A program made the translations under genes and the position numbers. Of a stretch of 64,000 nt of DNA, positions 15,001-64,000 are shown one piece after another. The notes beneath the pieces are model-generated. The model was not told where the DNA came from, did no database searches, and saw only the letters and a list, made by a program, of their open reading frames with translations. Every line of letters begins with the position of its first letter. The first letter of the stretch is position 1. Location: contig NC_060252.1 in assembly GCF_921293095.1 (NCBI RefSeq), positions 4,278,001 through 4,342,000 on the forward strand, read 5' to 3'. Source of the stretch: Ischnura elegans. Taxonomy: Eukaryota > Arthropoda > Insecta > Odonata > Coenagrionidae.

Positions 15001-16401
15001 TGGTTTAGGTTTGCTCATCTAGTCTAGAGTTACTCCCAGGTATTATTCCCATTTCTTTAGCCATTTGGATAACAGAGCAATCGCTAGGATGGGTTGAGCA
15101 GTCCAAGTCGTGATACAATAATTAGGCATCCAGGTTATAACAATCACAAATGTCGTAAAACATGCATTGAGTTTTTCTTTCACTCAATTCTAAGCCTTTA
15201 ACCCAGTTGCTTTTTAACCTTCAGATACCTAACTCGCGTACTGCATTCACTGGATTAACGTACTTAGTGTACATTTTCACCAGTTTGAGAGTCTCTTTGG
15301 TGGAATGGCTCATTTCCAGCAATCATTCCAAGAAGGAAATCTCGCGTCGAGTGAACTGACGAAGAACAGTATAAACGCATGCGCACGACGAGAGCCAAAC
15401 TAAGACCAATGAAAATTATCGCGCTACACAGCAACAAGACTGATCGTGCACGATTTACTGAACCTGAAAAACAGCTGAGCGTTTTAACTGAATATAAGGA
15501 TTAGAGCTGTACGGCCTCGAATAGGAATTGTAAGGTGAAGCGCTCCAACAGCCGTAACGTTTTGTACTTGTCCGTTTTACACCGACCAGGGCACTACTGT
15601 ATCGGTATAACTTGACTTAAGACATCAGGGACAAAACAAAGCCTCTCAACCGGTAACCATTGACAATCACTCACTCATTCAATCACACACACAAAGACAC
15701 ACAGGTTAAAGATGCTAGGGGAATAAGCTCAAGGAGAGCGGGTGAAGATGTATTATAAGACAAGATGGGTGCGTAAAAACCCTGCCAGAAGAGTTTAAAA
15801 ACACTCTTGAAAGCTTCATTATTAATATGTAAGCAATAATGATAAATATCTTGCGGTGTAAATAACCTTTCTTAGCAGTCGTTGAATAGATGCATTTTGA
15901 CATCCGTTTCCAGGCACGACCGTCTTCGGGCTGCAGGACCACTGGGTTGGAGACTCCGGCAAGAGCTCCAAAGGCACTCCGAGCTACAATGTGTCCGCAT
16001 TGGTCTCCAGTGCAGCGGGCCAGGCCCTCAGCCGCTCAGCCCCAGGGGCCCTCATCGCAGACAAGGCCCAGCGACTGCGGCGCCTCGCCACCGTCAACTG
16101 CGACGCCCAGTGGCCCCCCAAGGACCTCCAGGGCCCCAAGCTGTTCCCGCCGTGCAAGCCCATCCTCAGGCCCTGCCTCTTCGACGTGGCGCACGACCCC
16201 TGCGAGCGAAGGAACCTGTTCGATGTCCTGCCGGAGGTGGCAGCCGCCCTGCGAAAGCGATTGGACCAACTGAAAGCGTCCGCGGCACCCACCAACAACC
16301 GGAGAAGCGACCCTCGGGCGGACCCCAGAAACTGGGGCGGGGTGTGGACCAACTGGAACGACTACCCTCGGCCCAGAACTCCACTCTCCCTATTCGGATG
16401 A
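1..16401 (+). CDS. Arylsulfatase B-like gene, 3' six exons (5' partial)
   Basis: The gene joins 1-41, 3852-4167, 8061-8218, 10326-10461, 13646-13852 and 15914-16401, giving about 447 residues. Every junction is GT-AG and keeps frame (phases 0,1,0,1,1). By family knowledge, arylsulfatase B removes 4-sulfate from N-acetylgalactosamine in dermatan and chondroitin sulfate in lysosomes. The fragment follows the vertebrate enzyme in order: GFQDYYTHQ, RPLFLYVALSAPHSANS, KYA-AMVWKLDEAVG, FLSDNGAQT, KISPWEGGVR, ISDWLPTLFSAAG, PLDGVDMSAV, LRVGNYKLVDG, CLFDVAHDPCERRNLFD. Residues matching the catalytic His, Asp-Asn and Lys are kept, so an active enzyme is plausible. The CxPSR motif with the formylglycine cysteine lies upstream of the window. 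Insects carry several ARSB-like paralogues, so the exact orthologue and symbol are left open. Confidence 0.93.
42..3851 (+). other. Sulfatase intron 1
   Basis: This 3.8-kb AT-rich intron runs from GTAAGC to the acceptor CTTTGCAG. It holds a 14-base C run at 1088-1101. A GC-richer patch at about 2750-3190 looks like a decayed repeat of unknown family. A reverse-strand copy of the short GGCAGGGGGTG repeat lies at 3732-3804. I see no other gene or ordered structure. Confidence 0.75.
3732..3804 (-). repeat. Short conserved interspersed repeat, copy 1
   Basis: Read on the - strand it contains ACATCTGCAAAATACCCTGC, then GAGCCACC, GGGTGTTTGACAGAGGGTG and a terminal TGATAAATCA hairpin. The same order appears at 14426-14493, 37205-37254 and 43880-43942. 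Family name unknown to me. Confidence 0.75.
3852..4167 (+). CDS. Arylsulfatase B-like exon B
   Basis: The exon begins after CTTTGCAG with SVAETILNQ and ends in KYA plus one base before the donor GTGAAA. It carries STVGRYSTDLFAEEA and RPLFLYVALSAPHSANS. The histidine of APHS aligns with the active-site His of LALQSVHEP in human ARSB. It ends with the YIEDESRRKYA segment matching the family's IQDKNRHHYAG. The open frame continues past the donor to 4295, but that extension has no family match. Confidence 0.92.
4305..4959 (+). mobile_element. ~655-bp MITE family, copy 1
   Basis: Inverted ends AATAGGATAGTTTCC and GAAACCACCCTATT bound a segment that recurs nearly whole at 35588-36255 (reversed), 37733-38378 and 45672-46341. 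Shared internal marks are TTCATCAAAGAAAACGAAAG near the left end, a TAGCAGGGTACTC / CTAGCAGCCTGCG block in the middle, and CGCGTTTTCGCGCGCTTGAA towards the right. It has no coding capacity, so movement would need a transposase supplied elsewhere. Bases TA next to the GGGTGG terminus may be the target site. Confidence 0.88.
5039..5348 (+). mobile_element. hAT-type MITE, 310 bp
   Basis: It begins CAGGGGCACAGC and ends GCGACACTG, short imperfect inverted termini typical of hAT elements. It is flanked by CGTTAGAG (5031-5038) and CATTAGAG (5349-5356), an 8-bp target duplication with one mismatch. Long G runs sit at 5064-5076 and 5296-5311, the second facing a run of nine C. No transposase is encoded. 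Confidence 0.72.
8061..8218 (+). CDS. Arylsulfatase B-like exon C
   Basis: The acceptor ATTTTTTCAG is followed by CG, which completes an Ala codon, then MVWKLDEAVGKVV. FLSDNGAQT carries the Asp-Asn pair that binds the active-site calcium in sulfatases. The exon ends NYPFKG before GTGAGT in phase 0. An open frame continues to 8452 beyond the donor and is intronic. Confidence 0.93.
8219..10325 (+). other. Sulfatase intron 3
   Basis: A 2.1-kb intron from GTGAGT to TTGCTTGCAG. Apart from a 14-base G run at 8846-8859 I see no element or gene in it. Confidence 0.75.
10326..10461 (+). CDS. Arylsulfatase B-like exon D
   Basis: It encodes EKISPWEGGVRTCAFVW and NQLFHISDWLPTLFSAA. The Lys of EKIS aligns with the active-site Lys in the RKWSLWEGG block of vertebrate ARSB, so the intron falls two residues before a catalytic position. 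The exon ends with one base of a Gly codon before GTGAGA. Confidence 0.93.
10914..11407 (+). mobile_element. piggyBac-type MITE, 494 bp
   Basis: TTAA at 10910-10913 and 11408-11411 flanks ends that are inverted copies: CCCTTTCACTGCTGTGAAC on the left and, read from the right, CCCTTTCTCTGCTGTTC. TTAA duplication and a CCC start are marks of piggyBac transposition. Inside are the palindrome GAACGTACGTTC near the left end and a hairpin AGGGTCCCT...AGGGACCCT at about 11007-11033. There is no transposase frame. Confidence 0.8.
12502..13184 (+). mobile_element. Candidate MITE with 15-bp terminal inverted repeats
   Basis: TTAGGCCCGGCCTGA at 12502-12516 is matched exactly by its inverse complement at 13170-13184. 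The 15-base perfect match at 683 bp spacing, GC-rich in an AT-rich intron, suggests a non-autonomous DNA transposon. The flanks are A-rich on both sides, so no target duplication can be assigned. The interior has no recognisable coding. Confidence 0.55.
13646..13852 (+). CDS. Arylsulfatase B-like exon E
   Basis: After GTGGCAG the exon completes a Gly codon and reads GDVSQLRSSTRAPLDGVDMS. The PLDGVD block matches the conserved PLDGFDVW of ARSB. REVLINIDEADGYAALRVGN matches the family's LLHNID...AAIRHGNWKLLTG. It ends LVDG with one base before GTATGT. Confidence 0.92.
14426..14493 (+). repeat. Short conserved interspersed repeat, copy 2
   Basis: CATCTACATCTACATAATAC is followed by GGAGCCACCTCTTGGGTGTT and TGGCAGGGGGTG. 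It ends in the hairpin GGTGATCAATCACC at 14479-14492. It is the clearest forward copy of the four in this window. Confidence 0.8.
14606..14858. mobile_element. Foldback element with perfect 95-bp arms and target duplication
   Basis: Arms 14646-14740 and 14748-14842 are exact inverse complements over 95 bp around a 7-bp spacer TGAGCCC. CCTTTATAATAACG occurs at 14606-14619 and again at 14845-14858, a 14-bp direct repeat consistent with a target-site duplication. A 26-bp single-copy lead (14620-14645) precedes the left arm. A duplication this long suits target-primed retrotransposition with inversion better than DNA transposition. Short open frames on both strands arise from the palindrome. Confidence 0.85.
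15914..16401 (+). CDS. Arylsulfatase B-like terminal exon F
   Basis: It reads GTTVFGLQDHWVGDSGKSSK, then a Ser/Ala-rich stretch with PSYNVSAL, and CLFDVAHDPCERRNLFDVLP, the C-terminal block matching LWLFDIDRDPEERHDLS. It ends GGVWTNWNDYPRPRTPLSLFG and TGA at 16399-16401. The exon is GC-rich, unlike its introns, so long shadow frames exist on both strands. The phase from exon E and the family match fix the frame. Confidence 0.92.
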
Positions 16402-30300: not shown

Positions 30301-30600
30301 TCGATAATGTCCATTCTTTATTGCTCAAACCATCGAATTTTCGCGTGAAGCATTCCGAGTCTCCAGTGAGTTTCAGCCTAATTTGTTTAAAAAATGCGTA
30401 ACGCTTTGTTTAGGCCCGTCTTCATGCTTGTGAATGAATTTCAATTCTTAGATGAATGACTTTTTGAATTCGGAAATTCGAAGACTTCCTTGACGTCTTT
30501 TGGTTTGGGATTCCAATTGCTTTTGTGAGAAGCGATGTCTCGATTTCTCGTCAAATGAGCGACGAATCCTTCTCGGTAGGAGTGAAACAACCGTTCATTT
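27391..30600. other. Spacer upstream of the Pvf-like gene
   Basis: AT-rich 3.2 kb with no gene I can support. Near 29185-29400 there are several diverged ATGACAAG / ACAAGCTTGTCG words, perhaps an old repeat. A degenerate duplicated block starts at about 30017 and recurs at about 30473. Confidence 0.55.
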
Positions 30601-30740
30601 CCAACGCAGTCCGTGTGTGCAGCCGCTGTGTTTTCACTGCCGTTCAAGGGAGCTTATCGCACCGTCAGACCGCACCTTCCGCTCCCGGCAACCACCGCTC
30701 TCACACAGCAAAGCGCCTCACTCACGCATCCGCCGCCGCC
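30600..30740 (+). promoter_or_regulatory. GC-rich 5' region of the Pvf-like gene
   Basis: GC and CpG content rises sharply from about 30600 and stays high through the first coding exon, unlike the AT-rich surroundings. The stretch directly before the start codon ends CCGCCGCCGCC ATG, a good initiation context. No TATA box is evident. The extent of the untranslated region is a guess. Confidence 0.45.
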
Positions 30741-31112
30741 ATGTCGCCGCGCCTCCTGCTGCTGCTCTTCGCTGCTCTCGCGTGCGTGGTGGAGGCTCAA
30801 CTCGGGGACGGCGCGACCAACAGGAGGCAGGGCAACGGCAACAGGAGGGGCCCCGGCAGCAATAGGGGTCGTCGGGGGGGCGGTGGTCCCCGGCGGAGGG
30901 CCCCAAACGCGGGGCCCTCGGCCGTGACCGTCGACCCAGACCCGATGCCGTGTCGCCCGCGCAATGCGTCCGTGCCGCTCCCTCCCGCGCCGCCGGGGAA
31001 GCTCTACGTGCCCAACTGCGCCGTCGTGGAGCGGTGTTCTGGGTGCTGCAGCGTCGAGGCCATCGAGTGCGTCCCGCGCCCGGGCGCCAAAGTGGCCTTC
31101 GCCAAGTGGAAG
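30741..31112 (+). CDS. Pvf-like exon 1: signal peptide, basic linker, first half of cystine knot
   Basis: MSPRLLLLLFAALACVVEAQ is a clear signal peptide. Residues 28-53 are rich in Arg, Asn and Gly, resembling a heparin-binding segment. The PDGF core follows: C71, PNCAVVERCSGCC, IEC and a VAFAKWK strand. The exon ends in phase 0 at AAG|GTAACC. RNAS near residue 75 is a possible N-glycosylation site. Confidence 0.93.
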
Positions 31113-34100
31113 GTAACCACGCAATCTCCGGGTTCACAACAGGCGCGTCATCCTGGCACGACTCCCTCGACAATTTGGAGTTCCGTATGCCTTCAGTTGT
31201 TTGCGGGATGACTTTGTGGAACTTGCTCATGGTTAAGCTAATGCATGGATAGCTACGACTATTTGGTACAACATCCGCCGGTTTCAACACCCCCATAACA
31301 TCATCTTAAATCGATGCATTATCTATTTATAATGACGCGGGATAATGTCAACCAGTCATAATTGCGCCAAAAAGTGTGCGGATTTTATAAAGTCATCTAT
31401 ATATTTATTCAATTTGGACCTCCCTCTTCAATGCACAATAATTCCTTACCCTTTCATTATATCGAAATATCCCATTCACTTCTTTCCTCTCCCTCGTTTA
31501 CCGAAAAACGAAAACATTTTACCCACTAACAGCGATTCCAACATCCCCTCCCCGTTTAGTACTCGTTCCATCCAAACCTTCTGTCTCCCCTCCGTAACTC
31601 ATCCACAAGCTGCCTCTCCTCACCCACTTCTTCGTCGTTCCTCCTCCTCTCCGTCCACTTCACCCTCTCCATTCTTCGCCACGTCCTAATGTCGAATGCC
31701 TCCAGTCTTCTCTCGTCCTCTTCCCTTGGTCTGATCCGTTTACACTCTGCACTGATTGAAACGGGGAATCATCACCTTTCCAGAAGGTGTCGATGGCAGG
31801 CCGTCATAATTTCTCTTTTGATGGCTTAGCCTTTTCTCATTGAAACTCAACTCCTCAGCTGCGGCAGCTTCATCGTATCTCTTTCCCTTCACGAGAAAAC
31901 ATCGGCAGGAACCGCGACGACCGCGACCTCTAAGGCCCACAGGGGCATTAGGACTCCTTTCGCCCCTTCCTACATTTGAATTGAGGTTCCACTAATACGG
32001 CTGAGGTAATTACTGACGGATTATTACGAGTGGTTTACTCACATAACTGCGTCAATTCGTTTTAGCTGGCCGATGGAAGAAGCATTGCATTATACTTTTT
32101 GTAGGAAATCTCAGTTCTATTTCGTATCAAACACTGAGGAAATATCTTAATATTTACCAAGTATACGTAGGAATGTCAGGAATATTGCACAGAAAATGTG
32201 TCGGAGAGAGGACGTGGCGATGATATGCGGCTCTAAAGGTGGTAGGAGGGAGGTTAGCCAATTTTTCTTAGATCTCTCTCATTTAATATTTAAGTCTAGG
32301 AAAACGAGTCTTTAACCTAACATTTTATTTTTTTAGCATGATAAGATATAGATTTTTTAAATTAAAATAATTATGTAACACAATGCCGGCAATGGTAATT
32401 ATTTACTCAAAGCATGGAAACATTCCTTCATTTATCCACTGATAGAAGAAATGGAATTTTTATTTTCCCCTGAAATTGGGATCGCTCTGTCACCAGCGCC
32501 AGAGTGGCGACTTTTGTAGATCCATTTGCATGCGCAGATGACATAATATGCAGAAACCATTGTCGGGTGGTCGAGAGTTGAGTTTTGTATTTAATTGCCG
32601 AAATTACCATTTGCAGTTTTTGTTGTGGATATGTTGAACTCCTACCAAGTCAAGCTGAGACGATATTACTTATACCTTCCATCAACAGCCGAGGGTCATA
32701 ATTGCTCTCCTTGGAGCTCATTTTCTCGATTTTAAAGATTCTAGGAATCGTAGCTGATAAGCTTTTATTATCATTTGATTATGAAATGTCCGTAATTGCG
32801 TTTTTACTGGGTTTTCTGCTGCATCATGGTGCCATTCCTACGTATCATTTTAAATCCATTTCAGCATCCTACGAACTGAGTTCAGAAGTAAGTAAGGTTT
32901 AAATCTACTATTAGGGCCATTTTTGCTCATTATTATTGTTACACTTGAGTTGGATGTAAATGCCACAAGAATAACTCTCTACTATGCAGCGCTAAGCGTT
33001 ATTTTCTTTTTCATAGCTCGTCGATGGCTTGGTTGGTAAACGAGCTCAATGGTCGTTGACGCGCTCAAATTCCTGGGTAGGACGCGATTAAAGACCTCAG
33101 AATGCCAGAAAAGGTTAGGGTGATTCACAAACAGAGCATCAACGTGCATGGAGGCACCGATCCGGTGTAAAAATACAGAAGAATACACGAACGAACACAT
33201 TTCCGTAATACTCGTGATGCAATCACTCCACGATAACAATTATTTTACTAAACCAGCGCAAATGCAAAATGGGGGGATTGAGCTCTACGGCCTCAAAGAT
33301 GTAGGCAAGGAAGATAATAAATTGGCCGTGTATTCATACGGCATTATACATTGCCATTAAAGTACGTTCCTTTTCTACATCTAAACATGAGTACCTAATT
33401 TGCTTCCTGTTCACCCCGTTGCGTTGCCTGGGAATTGTTGGTAGTGTGAACATTTTTATTTTCCTATGGTTTGATGGAACAAACAAACACATGGAATTCA
33501 TAGAGCGAAATAATGTTAAGATATTTTTACACTTTTTAATTTATGTCAGATTTATTGTGTTCGCACGATAAGCAATAATAGTGTGCTTGAAAATAACAAT
33601 GACAAATAATTTAAGAAGGGATAACATCAAGATAATGTAACATTTGAGTGCATTTTAACCAGGGGAAAATACATCCGTAATACGATACTTTGGTTAGCTA
33701 TGAAGAGGTTCAATCATTTTCATTACGATGACATTTTTGTGCCAAAGGTGTTTTGAATATACATTATTCGGGGAATTTATGGCATAATTATTGTAAGGGA
33801 AAGGTTTTGCAAGCAGATATTTTGTGAATGGTTTTTATTTCCCATTTCATACCATTGTATCAATGCGGAGAGCTCTCATAACAGACATTCAAGCACTCCT
33901 AACTCGTTTCAGACAAACGAATACATCCCGGATCGAAATGGGCGATGGAGGTTCAATCAAGTGGTCACATTCGAAGTTGAAAAGCACACCAAATGCACTT
34001 GCGGCTGCAAGGTAAGTGGGGCATTCAAAGCGGCAGTGACAGCAGTCGCATTTACTACATATGAATACGACGGGAGTAATAACAATTAAAACAAAAAATC

Positions 34101-37100
34101 TTTACTTAATTTCCTGATATTGGCACCCAGATAACCCTTTAATGTTAGGAAAATAACAACTATACTTTCGACAACTTAATCTTTGATCGTTGACTAGTTT
34201 CAATAAAATGTATCATTTTCAATTCTGGAATAGTCTTCAAAATGATAAAGTGTATTGAAACTAACCAATGATTAAAGATTAAGTTCAACAGATTCAGACT
34301 TCAATTGGTGGAAGTTAGACAAATTTAAATAAATAAGAGATTGTAGCACTTTTCCACAATTTTTTCTTCTGTGTACAACGAGTTTCGGCTCACAGAGCCA
34401 TCATCTGGTACAAGACAGTAACAGTAAATATTTTTGTGGAAAAGTGCTACGATCTTATATTTATCATATAAGATCAAAGATTAAGTTGTATAAAGCAAAG
34501 TTGTTATTTTTCCTAGCTGAAAGTGGAATTCTATAATGTTAATTCAGTGCAAGCCATTTACTCTGGTGGATGAGGTGACCCTGAATGCCAAAAGTGATTC
34601 GTAATTTTTTCTCATTGAAATGTATGTAAAGTTGGTTTAGAAATCATAACCAAACCAAATAATAACATGAAACTCACCTCAAATTTCAGTTGTTAAAACT
34701 GTTTTTTAGTAAGATCAAAACGGTCTCTTGAGATGTAATAGATATGAAATCAAATATTCCAACTTTAGTCTTACTTTACTATAACTTTTCAACCCTTTAA
34801 AACCACCCAATATAACTTTGCAATGCTTATAATTTACATTTTTTAGATATAAATAGGAAAAAAGTAAAATTACATCAAAAATTTTCTACAGTCTAGGCAA
34901 AAATACAATTAATACTTTAAATAAATAGGAAAAAATAAAAATAAATGCGTAACAAAATAATTTTTAAAATTATCTTCATTTATGTAACCATCGACGTCAT
35001 CAAATGGTTGTTGTGGCGTTCAAAAATGCCAGGAGTGTATTCGCTCTATCTGTAGTAATATTGACAGCAAAGGTCCTTATTACTAATTTTAATCTTTCCT
35101 TACTTTTATTCTCTAATGGCGCGAAGCTGATACAGCACAGAAAAGATACAGCAATAGGATGAAGTGTTGAGTCAGTGTCGAGCAGCATGTACCGGTAATT
35201 TAGAATGTTATGCTCTGTATTGTGCTTTTCAAATTTTCAAACATAGCTCGTTTGTTTTTGACGATGGAAAGTTCATTTAAAAACTATTTTGTACGAGTCT
35301 ATGTGAACGAAACCGATTTAAATTTCTTCGTTTCGAAAGGGAGTGAGTTTGAAGGTCTTAAATAAGGTGGTGCTCGCGTGTAAATAGACGTTTTTTACGG
35401 CCATATCTCACCAAATATGTATTATATAGAACATTTTCGCAAAGCAAAATATTTGAAATTGAAAAAGCTGCAATTATTATCCCAAATATTTTTGGAGTTA
35501 TTTTGTAAAATGTTTATAACGAAGTTGTAGAAAATGTTTTCTCACTTTCGCTCCAATTTTTTGGAAATCATGTTTTGCAAATTGGCCAATAGGGTGGTTT
35601 CCTATTATTTTTTTATTGCCTAAATCGAAAGATCATTACTCCTTGAGTACGTATTTCACGCATTAAGATTTTTAAATGACGATATCTATTTTTCGCGATC
35701 AAATGAAAAGTGAACATTTTCAAGCGCGCGAAAACGCAACGGGTAAGAATGAATGCCGGGAAATCTCTCCGTGTGACGTATTTCTCGTTCCCGCTGCCTC
35801 CCTGTGAGGTGACCTTGAGGGAGGCTTGAGCGCTGATACGACGCAGGCTGCTAGCGGGTAGCTGAGTACCCTGCTAGCTGGTAGCGCTTGGCTTAAATAA
35901 GGATTATTAAGACCTTATCAAACGAAGAAAACTTTCCGACCTTAGCCAGTTTTAATAAGTGATTATGAAGACATGTTTCCCTAAGCTCTGCGCCTCATGC
36001 ATGCATTGGTAATCTCAGACGATGTATAACTCCTATCTACTCGTATAGAAAATAGGTCCCTATGACGTCACGTGGAGTGGCATCGCATGGGCGACAACCT
36101 GGCCTTCTTCAAATGCGGTTAAAATTGACCATTGCCATTCGTCTAAACCGCTATTTCTAAAACGAAATAATTTGTATATTATGAATACACTAATGGTGGG
36201 TAACGAATCGCAATCAATGCCTTTCGTTTTCTTTGATGAAGGAAACTACCCTATTTTCTACGATCCGTTAATAATATCTAAATTCAGAGAACTGCTGAAG
36301 GGCAACAATCAATTTTAATTAGGGGGTTGTTTTTACTGATTTGCTCGTGGAAAAAAGTAGGGAATGACTTTATTTATATAATAACTCACCAAAAATTTTA
36401 TGATGCAGACCTTGTTTAAGGTCATGTTTAAAAAAAATGCTTTAAATAGATCCTACGTACATTGTAATTTTTTTAAATGCACCGTTTTCCCGCTTTTGAC
36501 GTTGAAGCACTCAAATTGAACGTTTGACAAACACAAGCTAACCATTTACAAGCCGTGGTCGTACAGGAAATGTAAATTATTTTGCATTTTTGTAAGCTAC
36601 AATTTTTCTACTCATAGTTTTTAGATGAAATGCATATTGTCAAGTTATTTGTGAAAAAAACAATTAAAAACTTTGATTTTTTCCTCTAAAAACTGTTACT
36701 TTCATTCGTGAATAACTCGATAAATATTAATTTTGTTTATAATTAGTTTTTATATCGATTCCTTAGGCCAAATAGTAATAAAAAATTTCCACCCCTGAGA
36801 TGGGGTGAAAACCACTCCCAGGGCCCCACAGCGCCGTCGGAATGATATAGATTTTGATCGATTTAAGTATGCTGGGACTAGCCACGGTGATAACTTTCAC
36901 GGGAGTCTCCCGTAATGCACATATTGTGCGCAAAATCCACAGGGAAAAAATCATTCACATTGACCAGAATTTCAGGATCTGCGAGTCAATTACCTTCCTA
37001 CAATCAAAATTTCTTTAATTTGAAAATTGTGATTTGAAAAAATTGCAAGCCAATTACTGTAGAGGAAACTTGGCTGTCTGTGTTTGTGCATTTGCGCTAC

Positions 37101-40100
37101 AGCCTTGCGTCGCATGCATGATGTCAGCTCACATCGCCTTTTCTAACGTGTACGTGTTATTTACATTCATAAGTATGCACTGCGCGTTCGGGGTACTTTT
37201 GGTATGATTAGCCACCCCCTGCCAAACACGCTGGAGGTATCTCGAAGAGTATGCACGAAATTCAGTTGTAGATTCCCCGTTGATTCCCCATCTCTATGGA
37301 GAAAAGTTGGGGAAACTAGTAAAATCAACTGATTTCAGTTAAAATGAAGTTCAGTAGAAAGTTACTAGTTGAAGTTCTAAAAACTTTACCAATTAAAGCT
37401 ATAGAACTCTTCGACGCCATAACCATAAGCATAGGCCATTGGTGATTCCCTTTCTCAGGTTCCACTAGCACTCTCATATGTTATGTCTTGGAAGAGGCAT
37501 TGCCTACGAGTGTCTTAGAGTGCCGCCGCGTTCCAATTCGTGTCTCAGAGGGCGCGTGTGAGGAACTCGGGCGGCCAATCCGCTTAGGTGCGGATGTATT
37601 CGTGCGGGCCTATTCATCACACTCTCGCAAATCTACCCTGCCATGGAATTCATCTGACACTGTGTTTCATTCCCTTTTCTCTGGTGCCTGCAAATTCGAG
37701 CAGATCGACTTTCGCCAAAATTCAATATATACAATAGGGTAGTTTCCTTCATCAAAGAAAACGAAAGGCATTGGTTGGGATTAGTTACCCACCATTAGTG
37801 TATTCATAATATACAAATTATTTGGTTTTAGAAATCCCACTTTAGACGAATGTTGACGGTCAATTTTATCCTCATTTGAAAAAGGCCAGATTGGCGCCCA
37901 TGCGATACCACTCCACTTGACGTCACAGGGAACTAGTTTCTATACGAGTAGATATGAGTTTTACATCGTCTGCGATTACCAATACATGCATGAGGCACAG
38001 AGCTCAGGGAAAAATGTCTTAATAATCACCTATTAAAACTGGCTATGGTCTGAAAGTTTCCTTCTTTTTATAAGGTATTAATAATCCTTAATTAAGCAAA
38101 GCGCTATCTGGTAGCAGGGTACTCAGTTACCTACTAGCAGCCTGCGTCGTATCAGCGCTCAAGGCCTCGCCCCAAGGTCACCTCACACGCCGACAGCGGA
38201 ACCAGAACGATTTCACATGGGGTTTACCCAGCATCCATACTTAGCCGTCGCGTTTTCGCGCGCTTGAAAATTTGCACTTTTCATTTAATCGCGAAAAATA
38301 GATATCGTCATTTAAAAATCTAAAAGCGTGAAATCCTTCGATTGAGGCAATAAAAAAATAATGGGAAACCACCCTATTGAAATGCATTAGATTCAAATCA
38401 GGTGATGCAAAATTTTGGCGAATACAGTGTAAAATTTTAACTTTCATAAAAAAGCCGTTATGTTAAAGGGATAACTGCATTTTCAACGATTGATTTTAAT
38501 CGTCAATCCAAACTGTGGTAGCGAGAGAGTCCGTGGCGCCACTTTTGATGCTTTTTTTGATATCTTTTGATACAGATTCGTGCGGAGCACTGCTCGGCCT
38601 TGCAGACGTACGACTCGTCCAGTTGCCGCTGCACGTGCAGCAACAGCGATGAGAGGCGGGAGTGTTCGTCGCCCAGATACTGGGACGCCAACTCGTGCTC
38701 TTGCAAGTGCCCCACGGCGACCATGGCCTGCTCGACCGGATCCCTCATGGACACGCAATCCTGCCAGTAAGTTCAATTCTGCCCACCGATATCTTTCAAA
38801 AGAACGCCTGGATCATGAAAAGGCAGTACATCAAAGGGTCCCTGCGAAGGGTATTTCATGGAGACCATGGAAAGCTAAAATATGCCTCTCTCTGGTGCAC
38901 CAAAGGGATTGAAGACGCGTTTGCAAGAAATAGGGAATAGCCAGTTCCGAGAAAATAACAATTGTTCTTGAACCCAGAAAGCAGAACGAAAGTTTTCAAC
39001 TATGCCTGCTGAGCTTGGAATATAATGTTAAAAATAACAAAAATCAAAGTGTGCTGGAAAAGAAGAGGAGAAATATGCTCGTGGTAATCTCATTTTTACG
39101 AAAATTATTCATTGTCAGGTTCTTGCACTCAGGTCTTCAGTTATGTATTATTTGTTCTGGCTACCGCTTTTTATCACGTTATTTAGTCATTTAGATAAGA
39201 TTATGAAGGCTTCGTGGCATTTTAAATGAAAGATTTACAATGGCTGCTATTTTGGATTTAGATTAACGCTAATGTCGACCAATTCTCCTGCAATTATAAT
39301 TTCAAGCTTCATTTAATGTTCGTTGTGCTTCAATTTAATGTCAATAGCTAAAAATTATGAAGGCATGAAGATGCGGGAATCCACCTGCGAAAGATTGGGA
39401 AGAGTATCATTTAAATGTTAGAAGGCACTGCGACAGTCACGATTGTCCTCGATAAGTAGTTGGCCAATCAACACATGACGAAAATATTATTCCACTGTAA
39501 TTGAATAGATGTGGGTTGCTTCATTTCTTCTCGGGCATTTAATTAATCTTGCGATGCTATTGGAGACGTAATGAACGCTTATAATTACTTATTTATTCTT
39601 TCAAATAAGTCCAGGGTAAAGTTGCATTCACATTATCAAATATAACGTAAAATCGTGTATTTTATTTATCGGTGACTCTATGATAATTAATAATCATATT
39701 AATTTGTGGGAATAACAATATGAATAACTTAATAAACTTTATTAATTTTATTTCCATGCAAAAGAATATTCGTAAATTAAATGATGAACAAGACATCGGA
39801 AAATCTTGGTGACTTGGTGCCAAGCCAAGGCTGACATTACATGAAATAGAAATTTTTGTATTTGAAATTCAAACGTTGAAATGATTGAGCTGACATTCAT
39901 ACCACTTAGTTCCCAGCTTTCATCGAATTTTTTATAGGTAGTTCAACGTCTTTTTCGTTTCTATGATTGTAATCCTTATCGTAGCATTTTTTTAGCAGTG
40001 GTATAATAAAATAGGGCATGTGTAAGTGATAATTATGGCAATGACTCAGTGAACTTTTGCAATATTAGTTGTATAATTTATTGAGTTAACACCAGAAAAT

Positions 40101-45671: not shown

Positions 45672-46341
45672 AATAGGGTGGTTTCCTTCATCAAAGAAAA
45701 CGAAAGACATTGATTGCGATTCGTTACCCACCATTAGTGTATTCATAATATACAAATTATTTTGTTTTAGAAATACCGGGTTAGACGAATGGCAATGGTC
45801 CATTTTTATCCTCATTTGAAAACGGCCAGATTGGCGCCCATGCGATGCCACTCCACGTGACGTCACAGGGACCTAGTTTCTATAGGATAAGATAGGAGTT
45901 ATACATCGTCTGAGGTTACCATTGCATGCATGAGGCGCAGAGCTCAGGGAAACATGTCTTAACAATCACTTTATTAAAACTGGCTAAGGTCGGAAAGTTT
46001 TCTTCGTTTGATAAGGTCTTAATAATCCTTATTTAAGCCAAGCGCTACCAGCCAGCAGGGTACTATGCTAGCCGCTAGCAGCCTGCGTCGTATCAGCGCT
46101 AAGCCTCGCCTCAAGGTCACCTCGCAGGGCGGGAGGGGGAACCAGAAATACGTCACGCGGAGAGACTTCCCGACATTCATACTTAAGCGTCGCGTTTTCG
46201 CGCGCTTGAAAATTTTCACTTTTCATGTAATCGCGAAAAATAGATATCGTCATTTAAAAATCTAAAAGCGTGAAATACGTACTCCAGGAGTAATAATCTT
46301 TCGATTTAGGCAATAAAAAAATAATAGGAAACCACCCTATT
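45672..46341 (+). mobile_element. ~655-bp MITE family, copy 4
   Basis: A full-length forward copy with AATAGGGTGGTTTCC and GGAAACCACCCTATT at its ends. It carries CACGTGACGTCACAGGG near 45856. It lies 236 bp before the 6.1-kb inverted-end unit. Confidence 0.9.
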
Positions 46342-46577
46342 CTGTTGTTGGGCGGCCTCTTTATTGCTCCCGCGCGGTCATTGCTTTTTTTATGCCTCGC
46401 GGCGGAGATATAGTACGAGATCCTGAGAATCGCTGATCCCATTTCGCAAATTTTTCTTATATTCTCTCGCCTATTCAATCAATATTTCGTACAGCTTTGA
46501 AGATCAAATGGATATGTCGCGTGAGCAATGCCGATATTCCAAGTGGAGAGTACGATAACATAAGTTTTATTTATGTA

Positions 46578-46723
46578 CAGTGGTTTCCAAAAGTTTCTTG
46601 ACATATTGAGCTGCGCCACTTCTGCTCCTCAGAGAAATTGAGCTTCACTTACTGCTATTATTGTCCTTGGTTACGCGCCACAAATATTTAGTTTGTTTGA
46701 AAATATATGTTGTTCTCAAAGGT
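46578..46723 (+). repeat. Left terminal inverted repeat of the 6.1-kb unit
   Basis: It starts CAGTGGTTTCCAAAAG next to TA and loses similarity to the right end after about TTGTTCTCAAAGGTA. Differences from the right copy are scattered single substitutions and one indel in the A run. Confidence 0.85.
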
Positions 46724-48683
46724 AAGAGCGTAGAATATACCGTGTTATAGCATTAGTATCTTTCTTTCACCGGTTTCTAAAGTTGACAATGATTTTTTCT
46801 TTTATTATAGGCATTAATATTCGCGAGTAATGGCGCAATTATTTGTAGCTTTTTGCATGCACTACGGCGATATAAGTTAGCGATAGCCTCTAAATTGCTA
46901 ATTGAATGAAGCATACGGGTGGAGTCTGGTGATTTATTGGTGTTCCGGTAAATATTCGCGTTTCTCTATTCTGCCCAATGGATGTAAACACAACTTTTCT
47001 TTTGTTTAATTTCATCGAGAAAATATTTTTGCCTTTGGGGTCATTATTGTTGATTTCCTTTCGACTGATAGCATATTCTAATAGTAAATGAATATATCCT
47101 TCCTTGTCTAATTTGAGGGTTAAAAACTTATTTCTAGCGATCCCTAATTTGGACTCATGTCCTAAAGTTGCACGTAAGTATTTTGTTTATTTTGTGTTTT
47201 ATGTTAATGTTGTATAGTTGTTTTATTTTTTAATTTTTTCCTTTGATATTTTTTTGTATTTGAGCTCAACCACTTTTTTAAAATTTAAGCGACGAATGAT
47301 TTTTTTACATTTAAATTGTTTTTGAAAACTTCAATTATTATAGTAGGGGTAACAGACTTAACCTACACACCTTTGGGCGGGAGGAAAAACTTGTTTGTTA
47401 TAAGTGTGAAGGAATAAAATTTGAATGCGATACATTTCATTATATTACATAACTTCAATCACGCCGAAATCCTACATTACTTTGCAACATGACTTCCACG
47501 TGACTTCTACGTTACTCGCCTTTTGTGCTTCTTTTTTCATTGCATGTTAGTCGATGTTACAATAGCAAAACATGAAATGTCTCAGCCATTTCGCACAAAA
47601 TCAACGTAAAAGCCTAAATGAAGCCTGCAATGTATTTATAAATTTTACAAAATAAGATATTGTATCATTGAAAAAGGAGCCATTGTGTTGGATTACAGGA
47701 AAGATTAAAATGAAACACATAATTTATGAACTATAAATGGTGTACCTGAGGTACCTCGTGCTATTCGCGTGAGTTTTTAGGCACAGTCACGGAAGGGTTA
47801 ATTCACTATTCTTTACTGCCGGATTTCTTAGGGTGCACTCGTGTAAAACGCTGGATTCAAGCGCCTGAAAACCAGCAGTTTATTTCCGGCTTTTACAAGC
47901 ACGGGAAATTTTTGCGGCCCTTCACGTAAGAAGCTGGAAACAAGTTCTAGTCATCAATTGACCAGATGCCTTCTTCAAGTGAGGATGAAGTTTTTTTTAT
48001 TGGAAAACGTCGATTTTAAGCTAGACAGCAAGAAAGCTGAGATGAATTATATTAATATCGAACGAATGAATTGTAAGTGAAATTGAAAGAAATGTGGATG
48101 TTCTTTGTTTTTTATTTACATAATTGCAAGCTTATCTTGATAGCTTTCTTCAATAAAGTTAACGAACATATTTGGCTGTAGATGTTTAAGAAGCTGGCAG
48201 TGAAACAAATGCTTGCAGATATACAATGTACTCCGACATTAATTTAACGCCGTGGGGAAATTGGAGGGGTCATATGATTGGAGATTAAAGCGACGAACCA
48301 TCAACAAGACATTTTTTGCCGAGTGTTTACAAGTATTCTTCAAAGCATCCATGATTCGCGATAGTAAAAATAAAAGTTATAGACATTTCATTGGTCATTT
48401 CACAAGCATAAACATATAGAGAGAAAACTTAGCAAATGATCATACAAAATTTTCCAGGATGAATCCTATACGAATTCCATTCCATGCATTTTAGGAAAAA
48501 TTATAAAAAATAGCATTATATACAGGACTGCGATTAACCTTTCACGGCTACATAACAATTCATCAAAATAACTAAAATCATTCTTAAATTGTTGGATTTA
48601 TAAACAACATCCATTTGAAAAATTATCCTATAGTTTGGAAACGGTTGTGTTTGCTTGTGAACAATATCTTTGTATTCTAAAAG
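46724..48683. other. Single-copy interior of the 6.1-kb unit
   Basis: AT-rich sequence of about 2 kb with no open frame of note and no repeat recognised. Confidence 0.5.
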
Positions 48684-51600
48684 ACGGTATTCCAGTACAA
48701 CGAAAGACCGTTTTTTTTAAACTTCGAAAGTCGCTATTTTATTGAATGACAGTATTCTTAATTACGTTATTTCGATTTCCAGAATACCGAGAGCCTATTT
48801 TTCTGAATACTGGAATTCCAAAACACGCTATTTTGAAATTAAAGAATTCCGAAAGACCTTATAAACATAAAAAAATCGCAATACCCCCAAATACGCAATT
48901 CCGGGTTTCCGAAGGCGATATTTTGTATTGTAAAAATTTCCAAAATTGTTCCGTAATTACGAAAGACGCTAATGAGAATCCCGAAAGAATGTCTTCCGAA
49001 ACAACGAAAGACGCTATTTCGTAATTCCAAGAGAATCTTTCAAGGAATTACGAAAGGAGCAGATACGAACTCACAAAACGCTTTTACAGTATTCCGATGA
49101 CGCCTTTTTATTCCTAAACCCGATTTTTTTTATCAAAAAGAGGCTGTATTCTGAAATCGGAATTCAAAATATCAATAATCGCTATTTTCATTCAAAAAAT
49201 CACTATTTTCTGAATATCGAATAGTTCCAAAAGACGCCATTTTGGCAATCCAGAAGGCCAAAAGACTGTTTTCTGAATTCTGATATTCCAAAAAAACGCT
49301 ATTTTGGAATTCCTAAATTCTAAAACGGAATATTTATTGCAAAAGACAATATTTTCATTTCAAAAGACGCTTTTTTCTGAAAAACGGAATTCCAAAAGAC
49401 ACTCGGCATTCCCGAATTCCAAAAGAAGCTATTTTATTCCGAAAGAAGCACTTTATTTCCAAATACGCTATTATGGAATACCGGAATTCCAAAAGATACT
49501 TTTATACGTCGAAACACAGTACTTGACGCTATTTCAAGTGACACTATGTTCGTCACAAAAAACGCCATTTCATACCGTAAAACGGTATTTTTATCCCAAA
49601 AGGCGCTTTTTCTGAATAGTTGAATTCCATCAAACGCTAGATTGGGATTACAGAATTTCAAAAGGCTCTATTTTTATTCTGAGGACGTTATTTTTATTCC
49701 AAATGATGCTATTTTCATCCCAAAAGTAGCTTTTGTCATTCCGAAAGACACACGATTTTTATTCCGGAAGACGCTATTTCGGAATTCAAGAATTCTAAAA
49801 GGAGGTATTTTATTCGTAAGACGCTTTGTATACCGAAAAACGCAATTTTTATTTGGAGATTTCAAAATTTCAAAACACTATTTCAGAATTTTAAAATTTC
49901 AAAGGCATTATTTTATTTCGAAAGACACATTCGATTCCGAAAATCGCAATTTCGGAATTCCAGAATTCCGTAAGGCGCTATTTTATTCCGGACACGCAAT
50001 TTTTAATCGAAGTACGATGTTTTGTAATTTCAGAATACGCCATTCTTTACCGAAAACGCCATTTTCATTCCGAAAGGCGATATTTGACGATTCAATAAAT
50101 CCAAAAGACCCTACTCTGGAATTACAGAATTCCGAAAGGCGCTTTTTATTCCGAAAGACGCTATTTAAATTCCGAAAGACATTATTATATTTAAAAAGTC
50201 GCGATTTCGAGATTTCAGATTTCCAAAAGACGCTGTTTAATAATTCCAGAATGCCAAAAGGTGCTATTATATTGGAAAAGACGTTAATTACTATTCCGAA
50301 AGACGCCATTTCAGAATTCCAGAATTCCAAAAGGCGCTCTTTTACTCTTAAAGACGTTATTTTCTACCGTAAAACTATTTATATTCCGAAATACGCTATT
50401 TTTATTTTTTACTACAAAAGACCGTTATTATTATTCCAAAAAATACTATTTTGAGATTTTTAGAATTCCAAAAGACACTATTTCTTAATTTCAGAATGCC
50501 AAAAACACGCTATTTTATTCCGAAAGACACCATTTTAAATTTCAAAAGACGGTATTTATAATTCCGAAATACGCTATTTTGGAATTTCAAAATGCCGAAG
50601 GGCGTTATTTTATCCCGAAAGACGATACTTCGGAATAACAGAATGCCAAAGGATACTTTTCTATTCCGAAAGACGCTATTTTAATCTGAAAGACGCTATT
50701 TCGAAGTTCTAGAATTCCATAAGGTGCTAATCTATTACGAAAGACGCTATTTCGGAATTTTAGAATGCCAAAAGACGCTATTTTATTCCGAAAGACGCTA
50801 TTTATAATTCCAAAAGACGCTATTTCGGAATTTCTGAATACCAAAAGTCACTATTTTATTACGAATGACGCTATTTCAGAATGCAAAAAGGCGCTATTTT
50901 ATTCCGAAAGACGCTGTTTCGGAATTTCAGAATTCCAAAAGGCGCAATTTTATCCCAAAAGGAGCTATTTTAATTCTGAAAGACGCTATTTAAGAACTAC
51001 AGAAATCCAATAGGCGTTATTTTTTTTCCAAAAGACACTATTTCGGAATTTTAGAATGCCAAAAATCGCTATTTCATTACGAATGACGCTATTTTTAATT
51101 CCGAAAGACGCTATATCAAAATTTCAGGATGCAAAAAGGCGCTATTTTATTCCGGAAGACGCTATTTCGGAATTCCAGAGTTCCAACAGGCGCTATTTTT
51201 TTTCCAAAAGACGCTATTTAGAATTCAAAAAGACGCTATTTCGGAATTCCAGAATGCCAAAAGGCGCTTTTTTCTTCCGAAAGACGCTATTTTAGTCCAA
51301 AAGACACTATTTTTTATTCCGAAAGGGGCTATTTTGGAAATTTAGGATTCCAAAAGGCGCTACCTTATTCCTAAACACGCTATTTAAATCCAGAATTCCA
51401 AAATGCGCCATTTTATACCGAAAGTCACAATTTTTATTCGGAATGATGCTGTTATTATACCGGAAGACGCTACTTTAAACCGATAGACGCTATTTTTGTT
51501 TCAAAAGGAGATTTTTTCTCAATACCAGATTTCCACAAGACGCTACATCCGGATTCCATAATTTCTAATGACGCTGTCTGAAGGATGCTATATTTTTTTC

Positions 51601-51966
51601 CGAAATACGGTTTTTGTTTTAGAATACATACTATTTCATTCCGAATTACGCTATTTCTATTTCGAAAGACGCTTTTTCGGAATTCCAGAATTTAATAGGA
51701 ACTATTTTCATTCCAAAAGAATCTCTTTTTAATCCGAAACACAGTATTTTGGGATTCCAAAATTTCAAAAGGCACTATTTTATTGCAACAGACGCGATTT
51801 CTATCCTTAAAGACCCTGAATTTGTCTTGAAAGACATTTTTTTCCGACGGACAATATTATTTTCCGCTTTTTTAATTCCGGAAGACGGTATTTTAATTCT
51901 GTAAGACGCTATTTTTTATCAAAATCCTAAGAGACGTTATTTTGGGATTCCAGAATTCCTTTGGAC
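48684..51966. repeat. 3.3-kb array of diverged GACGCTATTT monomers
   Basis: Two monomer types alternate irregularly. One is near ATTCCGAAAGACGCTATTT (about 20 bp). The other, about 30 bp, is near GGAATTCCAGAATTCC followed by AAAAGGCGCTATTT. Both end in GRCGCTATTT. TTCCGAAA and TTTCGGAA in neighbouring monomers can pair, so hairpins can form throughout. Copies diverge, with best order at about 50500-51350. Long open frames here (for instance 49642-50454) arise from stop-poor monomers and are not genes. Confidence 0.85.
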
Positions 51967-51974
51967 CATATACC

Positions 51975-52262
51975 CATACAGCAGAGGATTATCCCATGAA
52001 TATGCTTAGAATATTCCTGAAGGGATATTAGAATATTCCTAGAATATTCTCAATGTTCTCAGAATATCCCGAGAATAATCCTGGTATATTCTATGCGCCC
52101 GCCCTAACGCATATCCCAGGGATATTCCAGGAATATTCCCAGCATAGTTCAGGAATATTCCCGGGATATTCTTATAGGAATAATCCTGGGATATTTCAGA
52201 AATATTCTCAGCATAATCCGGGAACATTCCCAGCGTAGTTCACGAATATCCCTAGGATATTA
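51975..52262. repeat. GGAATATTCC palindrome array
   Basis: Repeated short self-complementary words GGAATATTCC, GGGATATTCC and AGAATATTCT, separated by CCCAGCATAGTTCA-like spacers. The chemistry differs from the neighbouring GACGCTATTT array, but both are palindrome-based and both lie inside the 6.1-kb unit. Confidence 0.8.
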
Positions 52263-52566
52263 ACTATTGACGAATGCATGTTTTAACTAGTGACTACTGA
52301 TTATTTAAAAGAACCAAATTACACTAAAAAACTATTTATTTTCCCATTAAATTGAAAATGTTGAAACAAAATTTGGCACAGCCAAGCCTTACAGCCAAAG
52401 GCTTCCTCTCTGGAATTAATTGTTTTCCTGGTCCCTGCAATTTACAAATAAAAGGAAATATTATAAAAAGCAGTCACAGAGCAATTGTACTCTCATGCGG
52501 TAAATAATTAGGTAGAAACATATAAAGGGGCTCAATAACTGACATTATATTGTTGCTTGTAGGTAA

Positions 52567-52712
52567 CCTTTGCCAACAACATATATTTACAAGCAAACGA
52601 AATATTTGTGGCGCGTAACCAAGGACAACAATAGCAGAAAGTGAAGCTCAATTTCTCTGAGGAGCAGAAGTGGCGCCGCTCAATTTGTCAAGAAACTTTT
52701 TGGTAACCACTG
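52567..52712 (-). repeat. Right terminal inverted repeat of the 6.1-kb unit
   Basis: It ends TTGGTAACCACTG next to TA and is the inverse of 46578-46723 with few substitutions. Confidence 0.85.
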
Positions 52713-52714
52713 TA

Positions 52715-60185: not shown

Positions 60186-63100
60186 ACTGCATTTCGCATT
60201 TTTATCATCTCAGCAGAAAAACTACTGTAAGTAGAATAAGAATTTTACATTTTAGGCGTCATTTCGCATTTTAATCATCTCAGTATTATTGGATTAGAAT
60301 TTTAAATTCTAGACTTCATTTCGCATTTTTATTATGACAGCAGTGAAACTAAAAATTAAATTATAATAGAACAGAATGCTCGGAGTCATTTCGCATTTTT
60401 ATTACATCAGCGGTAAAACTACAAATTGTATTAGGATTTTAAATTGTAGGCATCAATACGCCTTTTTAGCATCTCAGCAGTAAAACATGTTATTATATTA
60501 GAATTTTAAATTTCAGGCTTCAATTCGCATTTTCGTTATCTCAGTAGTTAAAAACTACGCTTTAGAATTTTTCATTCTATGCATCATTTCGCATTTTTTA
60601 TTAGCAGTAAAACTACGAGTTGTATAAGAATTTAAATTCCAGGCTCCATTTAACATTCTTATCTCAGTAGTCAAACTACGAATTGTATTAGAATTTTAAT
60701 TTCCAGGCATAATTTTGCATTTCTATCAACTGAGCAATAAAACTTCGCATTTTAATAGAATGTTTAATTCTATGCCTCATATCGAATTATTTATCATCTC
60801 AGCTTGAAAACTTCGAATGGTGATGGAATTTTTAATTTATGGACTCATTTCGTATTTATATAATGTAAGCGAGAAAATTACGAATGGTATTAAAAATTTA
60901 AATTCCAGGTATTATTTCGCATTTCTATCATCTCAGCAATAAAATACGAATTATACTAGAATTTTAAATTCCAGTCTTCATTTCTCATTTTGATCATCTC
61001 AGCAGTAAAACTAAGCATTATATTCTAATTTTTATTATAAATAACTGTCGTCATTTCGCATTTTTATAATCTCAGCAGTAAAACAACGAATTGTATTAGA
61101 ATTTTAAATTCCAAGCTTTAATTCGCATTTTAATCCTCAAAGTAGTAAGACCATTGTATTAGAAATTATTATTTCTAGGCTTCATTTAGCATTTTTATCA
61201 CCTGAGTAGACAAACTACGAATTGTTTTAGAATTTTAAATTCCATTCTTCATTTCACATTTTTATCATCTCAGCAGTAAAACTTACCAAAAAAACTATAT
61301 TTTAATTTTAAATTCCTGTCGTCATTTCGCAATTTTATTATCTAAGTTGAAAATCTACGCATTGTATAAGTACAATATATTTTAGGCGCAATTTCGCATT
61401 TTTGTCATCTCAGAAGTTAAAGTTCGATTTGTATCAGAGTTTTAAAGTCTAGGCCTCATTTCTAATTTTTATTATATTAACAGTAAAACTACGAATTGTA
61501 TAAGACTTTTAAATTCTGGGCTTCATTTTGCATTTTTATCGTCATACCAGTAAAACTACGAATTGAATAAGAATTTTTAATTCCTTAGTGATTTGCCATT
61601 TTTATTATCTCAGCAGGAAAACATAGTGATTGTATTAGAATTTTAAATCTAGGCTTAATTTCAAATTTTTATTATCTCAGCAGTGAAACTACGAATTGTG
61701 TTAGAATTTCAAATTCTAGGCTTCATTTCGCATTCTTATTATCTCAGCAGTAAAACCACAAATTGTATTCGAATATTGCATTCTAGGTGGCATATCGCAA
61801 TTTTATTATCTCAGCATTAAAAATACGAATTGTATAAGAATTTTAAATTTTATGCTTCATTTCGCATTTTTCTCATCTCAACAGTGAAACTACTAATTAT
61901 ATTAGAATTTTAAATTCTAGGCTTCATTTCAAATTTTTATCATCTCAGCTGTGAAACTACAAATTGTATTAGAGTTTTAAATTCCAGGCATCATTTCGCA
62001 TTTCTAAAATCTCAGCAGTAATACTACGAATTGTATTTGAATTTGAAATTCTAGGATTCAATTATCATTTTTACCATTTCAGCCATTAAACAACGATTGG
62101 ATTAGAATAGCTTCTTATCATCTTAGCGAAAACAGCGAATTGTTATACAATTTTAAAAACCAGGCTTCAATTCGCATTTTTATCATCTTAGTAGTAAAAC
62201 AACGCATTATATTGGATATTTTTAATTCTGGACTTCACTTCGCATTCTATCATCTCTGTATGAAAACATCGTGTTGCATAAGAATTTTAAATTCTAAGCT
62301 ACCTATATTTCATATTTTTATCATCTCAGCAGTAAAACTACGCATTACTTATTAATTATAAATTACTCTCGTCATTTCACATTTTTTTTATCTAAGCAGA
62401 AAAAATACGCACTGTAAAGAAATTTTTCATTTTAGACTTCATTTCGCATTTTTATCATCTTAGTAGTTTAACTTCAAATTGTATTAGTATTTAATTCTAG
62501 ACTTCATTTTACATTTCTATTATCACAGCAGTGAAACTACAAATTGTATTTTGATAGAACAGAATTCTCGGCGTCATTTCGCATTTTTATAACATCAGCG
62601 GTAAAAACAATTTGTATAAAAATTTGAAATTCTAGGCATTAATTCGTCTTTTTAGCATCTCAGCAGTTAAACTACGAATTGTATTTGAATTTTTCATTCT
62701 AGGTCTTATCGTATTTTTATTATTTCTGCAGTTAATATACAAATTGAATTAGAATTTTAAATTCAACGCTTCAATTCGCATTTTTATCGTCTCAGCAGCT
62801 AAACTACGAATTATATTAGAATTGTTAATCATTGTATCAAATTGTACATCTCAGCAGTTCAGCTACGCATTATTTATGAATTATAAAATATTGCTGTCTA
62901 TGCATGTTTATAATCTAAGCAGAAAAACTACGCTTTGCATAAGAATTTAAAATTTTAGGCGTCATTTCGCAATTTTTATCATCTCATCATGGAAACTACG
63001 AATTGTATTACAATTATAAATTCCAGGCTTCATTTCGAATTTTTATCATCTTAGTGGTCAAACTACGAATTGTATTTGAAATTTAAATTCCAGGCATCAT

Positions 63101-64000
63101 TTCGCATTTTCATCTTCTCAGTGGTAAAGCTACGAATTCTGTTAGAATTTTAAATTCCAGGCATGATTTCACATTTTTATCACATCAGCGGGGAAACTAC
63201 GAATTGTTTTAGAATTTGAAATTTGACGTTACAATTCTCAATTTTATTATATCAGCGGTTAAACTGCGAATTGTATTAGAATTTTTAATTCTTTGCGTCT
63301 TATCGCTTTTTCAGTACCTCAGTATTAACACAACGAATTGTTATAATTTTAAATTGTAGGCTTCATATAAGATATTTTTATTTTAGTAGTAAAACTTTTG
63401 TATTAGACTTTAAAATTCCAGGCTTTAATTCGCATTTTTTGTATTTCAGCATTAAAACAACAAAAAGTTTTATAGTTTTAAATTCTAGGCTTCACTATTA
63501 TTCACAATGATTTTTACTATGACAACAGATAAACTACGAATTGTATGAGAATTTTAAATTGCAGGCGTCACATCGCATTTTAATCATCTCAGCAGTTAAA
63601 CAACGAATTGTATTAGAATTTGAAATTTGAGGCTTCAATTCTTATTTATTTTATCTCAGCAGTGAAACTACGCATTGTATACGAATTTTAAATTCTAGGC
63701 TTCATTTCGCATTTTTATTATATCACCTACGAATTATATTAGAATTTTTACTTCCTGGCGTCAATTCGCATTTTTATCATCTCAGCAGGAAAGCAACGAA
63801 TTTTTTAGGAATTTTAAATTCTAGGCTTCAGTTTGGATTTTTATCATCTCAGCAGTAATACTACGAATTGCATTAGAATTTTAAATTCCAGGCTTCATTT
63901 CGCATTTTTATCATCTTAGAAAGCTTCTTCTCATCTTTAAAATAAAGCTACGCATTATTTATGAATTATAATTTGCTATCGTCATTTTGCATGTTTATAA
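60186..64000. repeat. Diverged tandem array, unit about 68 bp, open at window end
   Basis: The unit runs through CTTCATTTCGCATTTTTATC, ATCTCAGCAGTAAAACTACG, AATTGTATTAGAATTTTAAA and TTCCAGG, about 67-70 bp. Roughly 55 copies are visible and the array continues beyond the window. Neighbouring copies differ by many substitutions and small deletions (spacing 57-70 bp), so it is old or not homogenised. It has no coding. Confidence 0.88.

Follow-up and report, generated by a model that had tools for sequence, protein, structure and literature searches.

A tandem array as probable passenger of a large Tc1-like transposon family in Ischnura elegans

The idea of a tandem array inside a transposon is already in print, and the nearest printed cases found are Tetris, miDNA4 and Helitron-type elements. 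Tetris of Drosophila virilis is reported to be a non-autonomous foldback transposon with tandem repeats that vary in number (PMC4079207). A review describes miDNA4 of Xenopus as a miniature inverted-repeat transposable element (MITE) of Tc1/mariner type with an internal tandem array of variable length (PMC12628747). Most Tc1/mariner elements measure 1.3-2.4 kb according to the Intruder paper (PMC7731502). The unit described here occupies positions 46578-52712 (6,135 bp) of the window, a stretch of 64,000 nucleotides from Ischnura elegans (assembly GCF_921293095.1, contig NC_060252.1), and contains a tandem array that is called array A below.

This unit is probably a non-autonomous member of a large family of DNA transposons of Tc1-like (IS630/Tc1/mariner) type, in which array A would be a passenger with local growth of its core. 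The first bases are CAGTGG and the last are CCACTG. In a self-comparison the inverted termini are 92.5% identical over 147 columns, and TA stands directly outside each end (Table 1). These results bear out the inverted ends of about 145 bp, the flanking TA and the length of 6.1 kb that an initial annotation, made from the sequence alone, had given.

The same annotation held that the unit has no transposase, and none was seen when the window was searched by tblastn with the C-terminal 191 amino acids of the transposase found within long family members. The sole match in the window is at chance level (E 0.5) and lies outside the unit. The longest open frame in the unit, 276 amino acids at 49624-50451, is array sequence and has no Pfam match at E 0.01. 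Scanning the window for Rfam families (at the gathering threshold) and for tRNA genes gave no matches.

Copies of the termini can be found throughout the genome, which was searched as 1.72 Gb in 110 contigs (C-numbers denote contigs and L-numbers fetched loci; the window is C7:4278001-4342000). With 40 of 478 candidates scored for the left terminus and 40 of 626 for the right, there were 40 and 42 matches, respectively. A 28-base terminal pattern, with up to three mismatches, matches 182 times (77 forward, 105 reverse), while its reversed control matches once forward and never in reverse, which puts the termini beyond chance. Pairing, based on 100 listed of the 182 matches, yields ten facing pairs within 20 kb, 1.8-19.5 kb long, and no diverging or same-direction pairs. 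The window's own right end is absent among the listed matches, probably through an extra base.

Among 28 distinct ends in the fetched loci, TA adjoins 26 (27 have T at -2, and 26 have A at -1), and ATG is preferred in front of TA. This count leaves out duplicate ends, alignments that begin beyond base 5 and ends flanked by fewer than 10 bases. The suggestion that the unit is mobile and has mariner-like ends is thus upheld by facing pairs across the genome, by the TA at most ends, by paralogous empty sites and by a Tc1-type gene within two long pairs.

Some family termini are clustered. Near-identical ones lie about 0.1-1.7 Mb from contig ends (C1:97376, C11:115499, C9:113899241, C7:118171438, C4:137929738 and C4:136335541), and the five of these six that were fetched have the same flanks, so they are probably copied subterminal blocks. 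Five same-strand termini occur within 0.4 Mb at C4:124142366-124514066, where the three that were fetched have identical flanks, probably as a segmental duplication cluster.

Evidence for a single insertion is provided by the flanks of the unit. Joined with a single TA and searched in the genome (40 scored of 44 candidates), they gave 41 matches: the window's own two flanks, six that stop short of the junction and 33 that cross it without the unit at 80-93% identity. At least 15 bases on the short left side are covered in 31 of the 33; the dispersed host repeat starts about 25-27 bases left of the insertion site. Locus L058 on C4, when read, is gapless with one TA (ATTTATG-TA-AATTATG, compared with ATTTATG-TA-unit-TA-CATTATG in the window), and L059 on C8, the second empty site read, is gapless at the junction. 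These empty sites are paralogous copies of the host repeat, neither alleles nor orthologues; within the fetched loci, checked ahead of the genome search, there is none for the window unit. Because copies cross the junction without the unit, and do so gaplessly in L058 and L059, the unit is one insertion into a dispersed repeat. It entered that repeat as one block with duplication of TA.

The distribution of array A was assessed with a 431-base piece of its core, for which all 19 candidates were scored. The 75 matches fall at 14 places, counting two blocks on C2 once. No large standalone array A is found among these places, each block being matched over a few kb at most, in a search that skips words very common in the genome and could miss a huge array. 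At four places a family terminus lies no more than 6.5 kb from the array. These are the window, C19:16.59 Mb, where both termini are present, C5, at a distance of 6.4 kb and with a family arm as well, and C9, at a distance of about 1.4 kb. In C5 and C9 terminus and array are oriented as in the window, and the places on C1 and C2 have internal family segments. Since array A lies near family ends at three of the 13 other places, it would predate the window copy and travel as cargo.

With 40 of 47 candidates scored, the segment just left of array A is present at five places. In the window and in C19 the array follows it directly, and in C2 only after other sequence; in C6 and C10 the array is not reached in the stretches read. 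The window and C19 are alike in arm, array edge and array order (about 80-87%), and therefore a single array-bearing element was ancestral at least to this pair. To judge from this comparison, array A was already in the ancestor common to both copies.

The edges of array A differ from its core. Aligned globally with C19, the left edge is collinear and 80-86% identical over about 800 bp, the middle (about 49449-51428) is 60-75% identical, and identity in the final stretches on the right is 74-84%. Within the window array, 60-mers have close partners (0.77-0.92) at 50500-51340 and poorer ones, mostly 0.55-0.73, at both edges. Core 50-mers match better within the array than in C19 (Table 1) or in C2 (mean 0.700). 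The reverse holds at the left edge (0.666 within the window array, 0.725 in C19; n=32) and at the right edge (0.666 and 0.718; n=10).

This pattern suggests an old array with decaying edges and a locally renewed core, and there is a modest indication that the core grew in the window copy after the split from C19. The evidence does not support birth of array A within the window unit. Of the satellite birth that had been proposed there, only growth of the core specific to this copy is retained, by a modest margin, as array A goes back to the ancestor shared with C19 and the other supposed satellite, array B, is an unrelated repeat.

About 59% of the unit consists of array A (3,330 bp) and array B (278 bp). 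They had been described as two palindrome-rich arrays filling over half of it; the share is correct, and the palindromes largely are not. Array A shows no excess, with 63 perfect 6-mer palindromes against a Markov mean of 81 and 20 8-mers against 24.7. In array B the excess is weak (six 8-mers against 2.8, shuffle maximum 10). Array B can be ruled out as a second satellite born in the unit, for it is a separate dispersed repeat of about 280 bp. A genome search with its 278 bases gave 49 matches (40 scored of 47 candidates), of which 12 outside the window cover nearly the whole length at 78-86%, and its places do not overlap those of array A except in the window, among the matches listed.

Longer relatives of the unit are also present. 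The C17 member (C17:10012972-10024222, loci L041 and L042) is 11.25 kb long with inverted repeats of 1,412 bp at 99.7%, and no array A is seen in it. The C19 member (C19:16591590-16601405) is 9.8 kb long with inverted repeats of about 1.2 kb at 82%. The left arm of the window unit follows the family sequence without about 490 bp that the C17 member has, and its longer single-copy pieces are 83-85% identical to C19. The right arm has no match in the fetched members compared; a genome search (40 scored of 53 candidates) gave a single relative of nearly full length, four partial relatives and, on one 61-base piece, 34 short matches. Array B and the right arm would be of other origin, which would make the unit a mosaic.

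Nested elements are present in several fetched members. Inner repeats of the inverted repeat/direct repeat (IR/DR) kind were sought in the 1.4-kb arm, and nothing clear was found. The arms of the C17 member are 99.7% alike while a relative on C5 differs by about 4-5%, as could follow from recent arrival or from gene conversion between the arms.

A candidate for the family transposase can be found in two long terminus pairs. In a genome search for DDE_3 (150 scored of 1,224 candidates), the matches ranked 3 and 4 among the 150 fall within the 19.5-kb pair on C14 (C14:15134634-15154140) and the 12.8-kb pair on C10 (C10:95218395-95231229), respectively. The gene lies 5,472 bp (C14) and 5,462 bp (C10) from the right terminus, and the two copies are 98% alike in DNA. 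The C10 fragment (L060) is open for 191 amino acids in the stretch read and scores 4e-17 for DDE_3. In PDB it comes closest to Sleeping Beauty SB100X (E 6e-20), and 35 residues separate the second D from the E by hand count. Seven genome copies, C10 included, are at least 78% alike (40 scored of 68 candidates), and two of the seven are inside listed pairs.

Other suspected sources, which are fragments in single members, were dropped. L044 has a nested Tigger-like unit (PF03221) and, near other nested repeats, a DDE_1 fragment at the cut-off. L037 has a piggyBac-type DDE_Tnp_1_7, and C17/L050 have a frame that we read as mariner-like, without a Pfam match.

These results are consistent with the following course of events. 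A transposase acting in trans, for which the DDE_3 gene of the C10 and C14 pairs is the best candidate, would have cut and pasted the window copy. Array A may have entered or arisen in an ancestral member and then moved as passenger DNA. Slippage or unequal exchange could later have expanded its core locally in the window copy, with simple decay at the edges. Array B and the right arm would derive from other sources.

Table 1. Parts of the unit and its flanking TA, with window positions
Feature	Position	Strand	Basis
Left TA target-site duplication	46576..46577		single TA in paralogous empty site L058
Entire unit of 6,135 bp, interpreted as a non-autonomous Tc1-like element	46578..52712		termini, TA, empty sites, genome pattern matches
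Left terminal inverted repeat; homology to family extends to about 46801	46578..46723	+	self- and genome comparison
Left arm, common to other family members	46578..48642	+	comparison with relatives; about 490 bp of C17 member absent at 46799-46812
Array A, irregular units of about 20-23 bp, 51/73-bp higher order, degenerate edges	48643..51972	+	
Youngest core of array A	50480..51400	+	50-mer best match within array 0.829, in C19 0.775 (n=19)
"Array B", copy of dispersed repeat of about 280 bp	51985..52262		genome search
Right arm	52265..52565		unmatched in fetched members compared; relatives elsewhere in genome
Right terminal inverted repeat	52566..52712	-	self- and genome comparison
Right TA target-site duplication	52713..52714		compared with empty site L058

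Several observations weigh against a Tc1-like family carrying array A and renewing its core locally. The junction in empty site L059 has TG and not TA. For five of the seven transposase copies (C4, C1, C3, C12 and C8), the 390 kb around them contain no listed terminus. One of these, C3:131539586, has a family arm match about 340 bp away, at a different spacing and with no listed terminus nearby, and the remaining four are near neither arm nor terminus among the matches listed. The transposase may belong to a smaller Tc1 element nested in an ancestor of C10 and C14, which is conceivable because the two copies are 98% alike. The core contrast is modest (0.829 compared with 0.775) and comes from one pair of copies, the block at 50200-50480 shows none (0.716 both in the window array and in C19; n=5), and scattered close pairs, up to 0.85, also occur in C19's own array. 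Eight of the 14 array-A places have no family sequence among the matches listed, the places themselves being unread.

This last figure also favours another explanation, in which array A is an independent dispersed satellite or part of another array-bearing element and was inserted into or joined to Tc1-like units several times. The five copies of the segment before the array diverge at almost the same base, three of them reaching array A and two not doing so in the stretch read, as repeated joining might produce. However, repeated joining would have to account for the arm, array edge and array order that the window and C19 have in common, and for the orientation kept in C5 and C9, and we consider it unlikely. 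Descent of the array within a Tc1-like family is preferred.

The remaining alternatives concern the unit as a whole. A foldback-type element would have long inverted termini formed by tandem repeats that grow there. The initial annotation likened the unit to such elements but placed the arrays inside single-copy termini. Both the long inverted ends of some members, such as C17, and the presence of tandem repeats agree with a foldback element. Yet in the window unit and in C19 the inverted repeats contain no part of array A, which sits between the arms, none is seen in the C17 member, and the target duplication is TA, whereas 8-10 bp are reported for Tetris. As the termini enclose array A without containing it, the foldback reading is unsupported and highly improbable. 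A chance pairing of termini from two elements, without a common insertion, would fit a left-right similarity (92.5%) no greater than expected from the distances of the two ends to the family consensus (0.035 and 0.057), as well as a right arm unlike the fetched members. It can hardly be reconciled with a host repeat that continues across the junction in 33 of the 41 matches, and there is next to no chance that it is correct.

Other features of the window lie outside the unit. A dispersed repeat of 164 bp occurs at 46178-46341, in the left flank of the unit, and at 35588-35751, 4797-4962 and 38236-38378, with further copies in L031, L035, L039 and L040. A second, larger tandem array at 60190-63916 has units of about 67 bp in two rows of about 27 copies each, with a higher order of 193/268 bp. 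On the plus strand, exon-like frames of a sulfatase gene (3765-16398) match PF00884 and PF14707, three of the four matches being under the curated cut-off, and a frame at 30468-31208, in a local GC peak, has a PDGF/VEGF domain (PF00341, 2e-09).

The locus offers a before-and-after case, in which different copies of one transposon carry the same array and an empty site proves the insertion. Comparing edge and core makes it possible to ask when and where tandem arrays grow, a question mostly debated on arrays whose starting point is not known. Tc1-type elements would span a wider range of sizes than is commonly stated, provided that the transposase really is part of the 12.8-kb member. A more far-reaching proposal, which we advance tentatively and do not favour, is a giant Tc1-like lineage (about 9-20 kb long, with inverted repeats of as much as 1.4 kb and its own DDE_3 transposase) with non-coding cargo, including a satellite-like array that turns over copy by copy after insertion. 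Such a cut-and-paste element would be both nursery and shuttle for satellite DNA.

Among known systems, Tc1/mariner elements (IS630; Sleeping Beauty, Bari, Intruder) resemble the family in their TA duplication, in inverted ends starting with CAGTGG and in the DDE_3 gene within two long terminus pairs, whose best PDB match is SB100X and which may belong to a smaller nested element. They differ from it in size, as the listed terminus pairs span 1.8-19.5 kb and the inverted repeats reach 1.4 kb. MITEs are short (below about 1 kb), non-coding and high in copy number; the unit, at 6.1 kb, and the listed pairs are longer.

Helitrons and Helentrons (DINE-1, CgHINE) are similar in that conserved ends flank a central satellite-like array, as described in reviews. 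The window unit differs from them in having inverted repeats and a TA duplication, neither of which Helitrons are known to have. Tetris is likewise a non-autonomous DNA transposon carrying tandem repeats, but these repeats are reported to lie inside the terminal inverted repeats, with target duplications of 8-10 bp and with longer satellite-like arrays derived from Tetris (PMC4079207). Like the unit, miDNA4 is a non-autonomous Tc1/mariner-type element with an internal tandem array. It differs in being a MITE, while here the 6.1-kb unit and its 9.8-kb relative both bear the array, and in that no large standalone array is found among the 14 places of array A, very common words being skipped in that search. 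What is less usual in the present case is the size of the family, its long inverted repeats and the contrast between edge and core beside an empty site.

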